A stretch of 40,779 nt of DNA from an uncultured Erysipelotrichaceae bacterium (GTDB lineage: Bacteria > Bacillota_I > Bacilli_A > Erysipelotrichales > Erysipelotrichaceae), in NCBI GenBank assembly GCA_949289855.1, contig CASEPS010000015.1:1-40779 (forward strand), in the 5' to 3' direction. Shown in pieces: positions 6,938 to 39,988 of this stretch (positions are counted from its first letter, which is position 1; every line of letters begins with the position of its first letter). Position numbers and translations under genes: made by a program. The notes below the pieces were generated by a model. It was not told where the DNA came from. It ran no database searches and saw nothing but the letters and a program-made list of their open reading frames with translations.

Positions 6938-7822
6938 TCAGCTGCGCATGCCATCCTCTTCCTCTTCATACACAATGCCAAAGGCATGGGTAAAGCGATG
7001 ATAGTAATACAGATGGTCTGACAGCTTCTCTTCACTGCTGACAAGACGTGTCCTGTTGAGCTCCTGTATCAGCTCTTCAAGATTCTCTTCATTTCCCACA
7101 TGTTCACTTGCCGGAAGTACAAGCATTTCATGGATGGAAGAAGGAACGATGAGTAAATCATCCTGAAGATAAGAAGCTATCCTGTCCAGCATGCCCTCAT
7201 AGAACAAAACCACGGCACCACGGATTGTCTCCCTGTTTGTCACAATCATCATTGTCGAAGAACCACCTTCTTCATATCCCATGCCATCTCTGACATATGT
7301 ATCCACCGGTGCAACAAGTGGCGGCATGAGCACCTCACTGTTCTTCAGGGCATCATGCATCAGCTGTTCTTTACTGACGCCAAACACATCCAGCAGCTCC
7401 TTCGATATCCGCATGCATTTCTGCCCACCGGCATATTTGTCCACCAGGAGAAAGAACAACATCCCAAAGTCACCTATCTCATAGCACAGGGCATCCTCAG
7501 GCACCGCATCCATGTAGCGCAACTGGGCAATCAGTCTCTTCTTTGCATCATCATACTGAAGATATTTATCCAGGAAGTCTCCAAAGCCATCATCCTCACT
7601 TTCCTTAATCATTTCCTCAACAAGTTTGTCATAGTCTTCTTTGTTGCAATACCGCTGGTAATACACATCGAGATTGATCACATAACCTGCGGACTGCTTT
7701 TTGCGCAATAGTGAAAGTCCGGTGTACTCTCCCCTGATGAGAGAAACTTCCACCGCTGCGTCCGGGAAACGCTTTTGCAATACCTGTTTTGTCCATTGTT
7801 TGAACATTTCGAAATTCATCAT
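6938..7822 (-). CDS. DUF5688 family protein
   Basis: The 294-residue soluble protein starts MMNFEMFKQW behind AAGGAGG; the second ATG (7819) is equally possible. Its organisation, an N-terminal FKQWTKQVLQ motif, a central DFGMLFFLL segment and a late NRETIRGAVVLFYEG...LLIVPSSIHEMLVLP stretch, matches DUF5688 proteins, which are widespread in Clostridia and Erysipelotrichia and have no known function. Its stop codon abuts the larC leader and both genes share a terminator, so they are cotranscribed. Whether it takes part in nickel cofactor assembly is untested. Confidence 0.75.
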   Translation of the reverse strand: MMNFEMFKQWTKQVLQKRFPDAAVEVSLIRGEYTGLSLLRKKQSAGYVINLDVYYQRYCNKEDYDKLVEEMIKESEDDGFGDFLDKYLQYDDAKKRLIAQLRYMDAVPEDALCYEIGDFGMLFFLLVDKYAGGQKCMRISKELLDVFGVSKEQLMHDALKNSEVLMPPLVAPVDTYVRDGMGYEEGGSSTMMIVTNRETIRGAVVLFYEGMLDRIASYLQDDLLIVPSSIHEMLVLPASEHVGNEENLEELIQELNRTRLVSSEEKLSDHLYYYHRFTHAFGIVYEEEEDGMRS

Positions 7823-26859: not shown

Positions 26860-26897
26860 AAGTAATAATCACCTCCACAAGACTAGCTCACCTATAT

Positions 26898-27014
26898 TTT
26901 CACAATTGCGCGTATAAATTTCAAGCCTTATTTCACAATTGCGCGTATATATTTCTAAACATTTTTCACAATTGCGCCCATAAAAATCGAGCTTCATTTC
27001 ACAATTGCGCCTAT
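26898..27014. repeat. four direct repeats of 33-bp period upstream of the DUF4143 ATPase
   Basis: The core CACAATTGCGC starts at 26901, 26934, 26967 and 27000, spaced exactly 33 bases apart and preceded by TTT (TTC in context TTTCACAATTGCGC). The 22 bases between cores vary. 33 bp is close to three helical turns, so bound proteins would face one side of the DNA. Read on the minus strand, TTGTGA of one unit and TATACG of the next are 16 bases apart, which also resembles a promoter in each unit. No such array is seen elsewhere in the window. Confidence 0.9.
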
Positions 27015-27042
27015 TCTGAATATGAAGTCGCTTTTTGCACAG

Positions 27043-27075
27043 TAAAAATCAGCCTGATTATTTAAACCAGGCTGA
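27043..27075 (-). terminator. intrinsic terminator of the AIM24 gene
   Basis: On the minus strand CAGCCTG (27068-27074), loop and CAGGCTG (27050-27056) form the stem, followed by ATTTTTA. It sits just after the AIM24 stop codon and before the repeat array. Confidence 0.85.
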
Positions 27076-27084
27076 CCAGATCTG

Positions 27085-27900
27085 TTACTCACTTTTGATG
27101 TTTTTTGTATTAGTTGCTGCATAGAGAGAAGAAGAATCATCCAGTGGACTGAGAAGTACTCTGCCTGTTCCTCTGAAAACATTCACGAGACCTTCTCCAG
27201 ATACCGCTGAGCCAAGCAATGTTTTCCCAGATCTTTCGACTGTAAAGTCAAGACTGCCTGACCAGCAGATCGCCTGGTTGCCATCTATTTTGAGAACATC
27301 ATCATCCAGTTCAATTTCAATCAACTGTTCACGTACAACATTGGATTCCAGTACAACAGTTCCACTGCCTTTGAGTTTCAGGTTGAACAAACCTTCATTA
27401 CCTGCCACAGCAGAAGATAATGACTTTCTTGATTGTACAGAAAGGTTAACGGTAGACTCTGACGCAAGATACATTCCATCCTGTACAACAAGTCCACCAT
27501 TCCAGTTTTCTACCTGTTCCAGAAGAATGAACTTGTAGGTAGGTTCAAGACACACAACACCTGTACCTTTGTATTCTGGTTTGATCGCTGATTCATTGGT
27601 CACCGCACCTTTCACAAGCTTGCCAAGCAGATCTCCTGCACCTTTGATACCGGTGGTCGCATGGACATTACCCGCCATCCACTGCATAGAACCAGCCTGC
27701 ATGGTAACACCAATTCTGCCATCCAGTTTACATACAACTTGTTTGCGTCTTACACCCATCTTGGACATGAAGTACTCACGCATAGCTGTATCTGGAGATA
27801 CTGTGAGATCCTGTACATATTCCACTACTGTGAAAATACCTTTTGAATCCTGAATACTGTAGTCAGGATCATTGAATAGTCCATTAATTCTAATAGCCAT
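27085..27900 (-). CDS. AIM24 family protein
   Basis: The 271-residue protein starts behind AGGAGACAAT-type spacing and consists of repeated beta strands. The block VTMQAGSMQWMAGNVHATT is the AIM24/TIGR00266 signature, and later GLVVQDGMYLAS and GLVNVFRGTGRVLLSP repeat the pattern of a two-lobed beta sandwich. Bacterial members have no known biochemical role; the yeast namesake is mitochondrial. It stands between the DUF4143 gene and a hypothetical gene, each with separate regulation. Confidence 0.9.
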   Translation of the reverse strand: MAIRINGLFNDPDYSIQDSKGIFTVVEYVQDLTVSPDTAMREYFMSKMGVRRKQVVCKLDGRIGVTMQAGSMQWMAGNVHATTGIKGAGDLLGKLVKGAVTNESAIKPEYKGTGVVCLEPTYKFILLEQVENWNGGLVVQDGMYLASESTVNLSVQSRKSLSSAVAGNEGLFNLKLKGSGTVVLESNVVREQLIEIELDDDVLKIDGNQAICWSGSLDFTVERSGKTLLGSAVSGEGLVNVFRGTGRVLLSPLDDSSSLYAATNTKNIKSE

Positions 27901-38560: not shown

Positions 38561-39988
38561 TTATCTCTTACCAAGGGCTTCCCTGATCATCTTATTGACC
38601 ATACCAGGATTTGCCTGGCCTCTGGACTTCTTCATAACCTGACCAGTGAGGAAACCAACTGCTCTGTCCTTGCCATTCTTGAAATCTTCAATGGCCTGTG
38701 GATTAGCATCCAGTACTTCTTCAACCATAGAACGGATCGCACCTTCATCTGAAATCTGCACAAGACCCTTTTCCTTTGCAGAAACTTCCGGATCTTTGCC
38801 ATCCATCAGATCATCCACAAGCTTCTTGGCCTGGGCATTGGAAACCTTGCCTTCATCAATCATACCGACAAGCTTTGCCAGATGTTCTGGATTGAGCTTG
38901 CATTCTGTAATTGATACTTCATGCTTATTCAGCCATGCACTGATATCAGAAAGCAGCCAGTTACATACATTCTTGGCATCTTTGCCATATTGCATAACCG
39001 TTTCGAAGAACTCAGACATTTCCTTGTTGCCGATGAGAATGGAAATATCATGGTCGGAAAGGCCATATTCCTTTGCATAGCGTTCTTTGCGTGCTTCTGG
39101 AAGTTCTGGCATATTGTCCTGGATATCCTTGATCCATGCATCATCCAGTCTGATCGGGAAGATGTTTGGTTCTGGGAAGAACTTGTAGTCCACATTGCCT
39201 TCCTTGCGTCTCATGAGAATGGTTTCACCAGTCTTGTCATCAAAACGACGTGTTTCCTGGTGTACTTCTTCACCTGCTTCAAGCAGTTTCTTCTGTCTTT
39301 CTACTTCAAAGTCAACAGCCTTGCCAATATTGGAAATGGAGTTGATATTCTTGATTTCATTCTTTGTGCCAAGGTGGTCAGCACCAACAGGCGCAATAGA
39401 AACGTTGACATCGCAACGCATAGAACCTTCTTCCATACGGCAGTCAGAAACACCAATGTAATACAATGTCTGACGCAATGCTTCTACATAAGCCTCTGCT
39501 TCCTGACCATTTGTCATATCCGGCTTGGAAACAATTTCGATGAGTGGTGTACCGGCACGATTGAAGTCAAGCAGGGAGAACTTGGAAAGATGGTACTGCT
39601 TGGCAGTATCTTCTTCCATATGAATGCGCTCAATGCGGATCTTCTTCTTTCCTTCTGGTGTATCAATCACCACATAACCATCCTTGCCAATCGGATGAAA
39701 CTGCTGGGTAATCTGGAAACCCTTGGCAAGATCACTATAGTAGTAATTCTTGCGGTCAAACTTCACCAGCGGATCAATGGTCATGTGGAAAGCCGTACAA
39801 GCCTGAATGGCACGTCTTACCGCTTCCCGGTTGACTTCCGGCATAGCACCCGGATGACCGAGGTCAATTTCATTGACACATGTATTTGCCTTTCTGCCAA
39901 AGGAAGTTGGTGCACCAGAGAACATCTTTGTATTCGTCTTCAGCTGGCAGTGAATTTCAATACCAATCGTTACATTGTATTCCATCAT
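38561..39988 (-). CDS. gatB: aspartyl/glutamyl-tRNA amidotransferase subunit B
   Basis: GatB binds mischarged Glu-tRNA(Gln) or Asp-tRNA(Asn) and phosphorylates the side chain for amidation. The 475-residue protein begins YNVTIGIEIHCQLKTNTKMF, then HPGAMPEVN, FDRKNYYYSDLAKGFQITQ, MRCDVNVSIAP and TGQVMKKSRGQANPGMVNK, all GatB hallmarks; the tail domain contacts tRNA. The first ATG overlaps the gatA stop codon as ATGATG behind GGAGGTG; the second ATG may be used. It is complete and cotranscribed with gatA. Confidence 0.97.
   Translation of the reverse strand: MMEYNVTIGIEIHCQLKTNTKMFSGAPTSFGRKANTCVNEIDLGHPGAMPEVNREAVRRAIQACTAFHMTIDPLVKFDRKNYYYSDLAKGFQITQQFHPIGKDGYVVIDTPEGKKKIRIERIHMEEDTAKQYHLSKFSLLDFNRAGTPLIEIVSKPDMTNGQEAEAYVEALRQTLYYIGVSDCRMEEGSMRCDVNVSIAPVGADHLGTKNEIKNINSISNIGKAVDFEVERQKKLLEAGEEVHQETRRFDDKTGETILMRRKEGNVDYKFFPEPNIFPIRLDDAWIKDIQDNMPELPEARKERYAKEYGLSDHDISILIGNKEMSEFFETVMQYGKDAKNVCNWLLSDISAWLNKHEVSITECKLNPEHLAKLVGMIDEGKVSNAQAKKLVDDLMDGKDPEVSAKEKGLVQISDEGAIRSMVEEVLDANPQAIEDFKNGKDRAVGFLTGQVMKKSRGQANPGMVNKMIREALGKR

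Follow-up and report, generated by a model that had tools for sequence, protein, structure and literature searches.

Direct repeats adjoining the gene of their own binding protein are a feature of plasmid Rep initiators, whose iterons comprise head-to-tail cores with a spacing near whole helical turns. In toxin–antitoxin operators, the promoter of the controlled gene is covered by several copies of a site, the whole forming a small unit that is spread horizontally. Here, we describe an array of direct repeats upstream of an ATPase–nuclease gene, within a 40,779-nucleotide stretch of DNA from an uncultured Erysipelotrichaceae bacterium (the window). It resembles the iterons in that the repeats adjoin the gene of their putative binder and have a near-whole-turn spacing, but there is no replicon, the period is longer (33 bp) in one clade, the adjacent gene encodes a nuclease-bearing AAA protein and the core is private to each subfamily. 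With toxin–antitoxin operators it has in common the presence of several sites over a promoter (here a predicted one) and the horizontal spread of a small unit, although only one gene is present, with no antitoxin to partner it, the product is an ATPase, and the period is strictly locked to the protein clade. On the basis of structural models, the protein may also be likened to Orc1/Cdc6 and to the archaeal ATPases SSO1545 (2fna) and PABY2304 (2qen), with which it would share an AAA/STAND core together with helical and winged-helix parts; it differs in having an additional C-terminal PD-(D/E)XK nuclease, and a private array in place of a chromosomal origin.

The protein family itself has been described as the candidate defence system PDC-S01 (AAA_14–DUF4143). 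The window ATPase matches the corresponding PADLOC model (PDLC04786) over its full length (residues 1–444; E = 2.5e-103), and has the ATPase plus PD-(D/E)XK architecture given in PMC12988326. PMC12988326 places PDC-S01 fourth among candidate defence systems in prokaryotes by frequency, and states that most PDCs still await experimental validation; in PMC13356809 it is the single locus found most often in cattle rumen genomes. The passages found in these two papers make no mention of 33- or 23-bp arrays, and the word 'promoter' is absent from PMC12988326. A search confined to open-access papers found no description of an array before these ATPase genes; the arrays appear to be undescribed, and we regard this novelty as provisional.

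Four identical cores precede the ATPase gene

Upstream of the ATPase start, a 14-bp core (GCGCAATTGTGAAA on the gene's strand (−); TTTCACAATTGCGC on the + strand) occurs in four identical copies with a step of exactly 33 bp (Table 1). The original prediction had placed cores at 26901, 26934, 26967 and 27000, between the terminator of the AIM24 gene (27077–27047, minus strand) and the ribosome binding site of the ATPase gene; both the starts and the location are correct, the identical 14-bp stretch beginning at 26898, 26931, 26964 and 26997. It had further proposed that selection acts on the core and on the phase, and the analyses below support a selected core and a fixed period; the location on one DNA face, part of one of its two readings, holds only approximately, as 33 bp corresponds to 3.14 turns at 10.5 bp/turn, giving a drift of ~51 degrees per unit.

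Tandem Repeats Finder assigns the array a period of 33 and a score of 141, the highest score elsewhere in the window being 52. When the window was scanned for sets of four 14-mers at equal spacing (period of 20–60 bp; no more than one mismatch between neighbours), this array was the single match, and 20 shuffles gave none. Throughout the draft genome, the 14-mer was found, with up to one mismatch, at the four array sites and at one unrelated site with a single mismatch at 7703. The sigma-70-like promoter that we predict across the core nearest to the gene has 9/12 consensus matches and a TG before the −10 element, and is weak evidence alone, with two sites found in the region versus 1.2 expected; it is a better match than TTGTGA-16-TATACG, the promoter that had been proposed originally.

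The genes neighbouring the ATPase gene encode a nitroreductase and an AIM24 protein; they are housekeeping-like and do not form a defence island. The genome contains two AIM24 paralogues with 81% identity, one adjoining the ATPase unit in the window (27085–27900) and the other at 39486–40298 of contig C4.

Table 1. Features of the ATPase–nuclease locus (positions refer to the window)
Feature	Position	Strand	Details
ATPase–nuclease CDS, 445 aa	25522..26859	−	AAA_14, residues 22–155; DUF4143, residues 227–398
ATPase–nuclease parts			Modelled helical/winged-helix part, ~residues 178–292; PD-(D/E)XK nuclease, E349, D381, E394, K396
Ribosome binding site of ATPase	26870..26876	−	GGAGGTG; read from sequence
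Predicted sigma-70-like promoter	26896..26924	−	TTGAAA-17-GAAAAT; spans last core; consensus scan
Core 4 (nearest to gene)	26898..26911	−	GCGCAATTGTGAAA; overlaps predicted −35/−10 promoter
Core 3	26931..26944	−	GCGCAATTGTGAAA
Core 2	26964..26977	−	GCGCAATTGTGAAA
Core 1 (farthest from gene)	26997..27010	−	GCGCAATTGTGAAA
Intrinsic terminator of upstream AIM24 gene	27047..27077	−	Marks the outer limit of the intergenic region that holds the array

The period of the array is locked to the protein clade

Of 80 homologues (76 to 39% identity; many phyla), nearly all have two to five upstream cores at 32–34 bp, with core sequences that differ among them; arrays also precede relatives at 28–34% identity. 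In a lag spectrum of the 330 bp upstream, a lag of 33 was seen for 103/182 genes, versus 10/144 downstream regions and 5/182 shuffles, and a second discrete peak was present at a lag of 23 (28 upstream regions, versus one downstream region and seven shuffles).

In a tree of 249 members of the AAA_14–DUF4143 family, the clade with a GPKWCGKT-type Walker motif (35 leaves; support 1.0) has 23–24-bp arrays in 35/35 cases. The clade containing the window protein (165 leaves; support 0.90) has 32–34-bp arrays in 149/163, with modes of 33 (110 members), 32 (20 members) and 34 (16 members), and several of the 14 exceptions carry arrays that by eye are degenerate or masked. In the remaining short clades, 33 of 49 members are without an array. 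For comparison, the rule used to call arrays yields '33' in 11/247 and '23' in 19/247 shuffles. The association of clade with period gives a Fisher p-value of 8e-35, with related genes treated as independent, and both clades occur in the same hosts. Indeed, the rule is kept inside single genomes, namely those of an archaeon, a Bacteroidales, Gardnerella and a Spirochaetales, and also in further archaea, while all 12 of the relatives on IMG/VR contigs have 33- or 34-bp arrays. Because the rule holds across different hosts, the period is set by the protein, or by a factor that travels with it, and not by the host. The array is a family trait, near-universal in two clades and present in both Bacteria and Archaea, and its period is locked to the protein clade independently of the host. 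Homologues lacking any array, which the original prediction had envisaged as evidence against it, did not turn up as such, since homologues almost always carry one.

In three members of a short GVRRCGKS-type clade without direct arrays (L133, L134 and L139), seemingly palindromic sites lie before the gene instead. The family has also accumulated strongly in two archaeal genomes, G292 and G272, which have, respectively, 32 and 20 DUF4143 matches in 1.5 and 1.7 Mb.

The cores are private and inherited with the ATPase

The best 11-bp core match is 9.8/11 for ATPases of 70–85% identity and ~7.2 for those below 45%, the null value being 6.0. Core similarity tracks ATPase identity above ~60% and is near background below 50%, and the tracking persists when the hosts belong to different phyla. 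Moreover, paralogues within one genome carry different cores; the window genome itself encodes two paralogues of the window protein, L120 and L121, each having an array and its own core. The core sequences are private and are inherited with the ATPase. They are no family signature at all, a point that the original prediction had not anticipated: the core changes from subfamily to subfamily, and within a clade the period alone is common.

In 620 kb of fetched loci, there were 57 array calls upstream of ATPases and three elsewhere, two of which proved to be upstream of ATPases overlooked by the gene finder, so that the array is specific to the ATPase gene, as had been suggested. A core scattered through the genome, which would have spoken against this, was seen neither in the window genome nor in the single-contig genome G050, where one core occurs five times, always in its own array. 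Viral contigs contained no decoy arrays with the window core.

Two other descriptions of the arrays were considered and rejected, namely, a family-wide core motif, given the near-background similarity of distant cores, and a CRISPR-like array, since the fillers are conserved among close relatives and not acquired.

The ATPase–nuclease

The window ATPase exceeds the gathering cut-off for both Pfam AAA_14 (PF13173) and DUF4143 (PF13635). The Walker residues (G27, G32, K33 and D96) and those of the nuclease listed in Table 1 are invariant across 73 homologues, which bears out the earlier reading of intact Walker motifs and PD-(D/E)XK-like residues. A sequence-profile search for PDB relatives returned none. 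The AF2 model (pLDDT 88.6) aligns with 2qen (Z 16.8) and 2fna (Z 15.5) over 262–270 residues, with CED-4 and plant NLRs (Z ~14–15) and with archaeal Orc/Cdc6 proteins (Z ~11; 10.8 for 2qby, which contains origin DNA); its C-terminal domain aligns modestly with the nucleases Can2, McrC and Card1 (Z 7–7.7). The model is thus that of a STAND/Orc-type ATPase, comprising helical and winged-helix parts as well as an intact PD-(D/E)XK nuclease. NLRs and CED-4, the nearest PDB relatives of such an architecture, are not known to bind DNA through the winged helix.

Covariation between the core and segments of the ATPase is marginal: r reaches 0.205 in the best window (residues 195–207), the 95% null maximum being 0.17; for the winged-helix window (residues 257–269) the value of ~0.13 is below that maximum. 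A scan of six proteins at the window locus and around it revealed no cognate methyltransferase. No paired antitoxin gene or RNA was found: the neighbours are the nitroreductase and AIM24 genes, there is no Rfam RNA, and the array and ORF travel partnerless.

Proposed role of the array

It is likely that the ATPase binds the array, which would constitute a private, iterated DNA-binding site of the adjacent ATPase–nuclease. Binding may be head to tail, with one protomer or dimer per unit; the winged helix would read the core, and the step, 33 or 23 bp depending on the clade, would be fixed by the geometry of the oligomer. The array usually overlaps a predicted promoter: a core falls within the best −40 to +4 promoter footprint in 96 of the 120 arrays with a promoter score >8, a score that is also reached in 71% of shuffles, which makes promoter scores weak evidence. 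Given this overlap, an oligomer assembled on the cores would repress the ATPase's own gene, and it could at the same time hold the nuclease in check; autorepression by the ATPase is, in our estimation, moderately likely. The protein, together with its nuclease, might then be set free or activated by a change in nucleotide state or in the DNA (e.g. upon infection by a phage or other element); array and gene would in that case amount to a self-addressed switch made of one gene, with a plausible part in defence or addiction. We consider the overall reading, in which the ATPase binds its own array, represses itself and acts as a self-addressed nuclease switch, to be fairly probable, while a nuclease output in defence or addiction is put forward tentatively.

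More generally, such one-gene ATPase–nuclease switches may be widespread, with lineages that co-evolve with a private promoter address, a step of 33 or 23 bp set by the clade, orthogonal copies that coexist, and a unit of ~1.5 kb that spreads across phyla and domains; we hold the case for and against this wider proposal to be evenly balanced. The private address before nearly every member of two clades offers a handle on the binding target of the ATPase and on its control. If the proposal is true, it would supply many orthogonal protein–DNA pairs of known sequence, and genomes would contain many mutually orthogonal copies; one archaeon has as many as 32 members of the family.

The array and ORF as a transferred unit

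The array and ORF together are a transferred unit. Where homologues with at least 80% identity lie in different contexts, the DNA homology often sets in at about the first core and gives out no more than ~30 bp from the stop codon; L061 and L062, for example, are 93.6% identical in DNA between −136 and the stop. In some pairs the shared flank is longer. Close ATPase relatives occur in different phyla, and whole units of the array have been gained or lost in phase (three copies in L018 versus four in L021; three in L062 versus four in L061). A comparison aimed at an empty site for the window unit gave alignments of the AIM24 paralogue and of homologues from the genus that were confined to the AIM24 gene and so did not define the edge of the array.

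The homology edges and the spread across phyla would also be consistent with the main rival to self-binding, namely, that the array is the recognition end of a minimal one-gene mobile element, the ATPase–nuclease of which recombines array and ORF to new places. Array copies that flank the gene in L006, L007 and L068, the tandem ATPases with arrays in L008, and flanking direct repeats scoring at least 13 in 9/157 loci (the 99.9% null being 12) point in the same direction, as does an 18-bp inverted repeat at both edges in L018 and L021. However, inverted repeats rise above the null in this one pair of related loci only, and family-wide terminal inverted repeats were accordingly rejected; core copies after the gene are rare (8/127, versus three for the reversed-core control). 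Furthermore, the position of the array beside the promoter and start codon suits an operator, and ordinary transfer with selection on array and ORF would also give sharp edges. We regard the mobile element as unlikely, and prefer the array as a binding site of its own ATPase.

The inverted repeat of L018 and L021 (TGATATTTTGATAAAAAC / GTTTTTATCAAAATATCA) lies at the array edge and the stop-codon edge, much as the ends of a very small transposon would. At L008:3001-5912, each of the two tandem ATPases has its own 33-bp array, the cores being unrelated, and a lone core of the first array is left just after the first gene. In L121 (contig C76 of the window genome), a second copy of the terminator and array follows the gene (77% over 239 bp), and a third, partial one is present; the arrangement looks like tandem amplification of units with loss of genes.

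Promoter, transcript and origin as alternatives

The original prediction offered two readings of the array, iteron-like sites and a ladder of promoters. In part these merge, as in some subfamilies each unit holds its own −35/−10 pair (e.g. the 33-bp unit TTGAAAAAACTGCACATTTTTGATAAAAT of L071, which is a full −35/17/−10 set), but a 23-bp unit leaves no room for a promoter, so that this cannot apply to the clade with that period; the protein, rather than RNA polymerase, therefore best explains the period. That the array is a promoter ladder or the operator of a host regulator, which would raise or time expression with something other than the ATPase as its reader, also sits poorly with a period and core that follow the ATPase clade, and not the host, across phyla and domains, and with the different cores of paralogues in one genome. 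We judge it improbable.

An action of the array as RNA or peptide, be it a leader RNA, a small RNA or a leader peptide with 11-residue repeats, is suggested by the divisibility of 33 by three and by L124, in which the longest ORF traverses the array. It seems very improbable, as periods of 23, 32 and 34 break the reading frame, there is no Rfam match, and most arrays contain or precede the predicted promoter, the transcript of which would thus lack much of the array. Least credible is an iteron origin with the ATPase as the Orc/Rep-like initiator of a degenerate replicon: the head-to-tail cores, the Orc-like fold of the model and the near-whole-turn spacing would fit, but there are up to 20–32 family copies per genome, several occur in a single-contig genome of 2.65 Mb, the neighbours of the window copy that were scanned include no replication genes, and the ATPase is fused to a nuclease.

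The L124 ORF, which runs upstream through the array as 11-residue repeats, is likely to illustrate a trap for start-codon annotation in this family.
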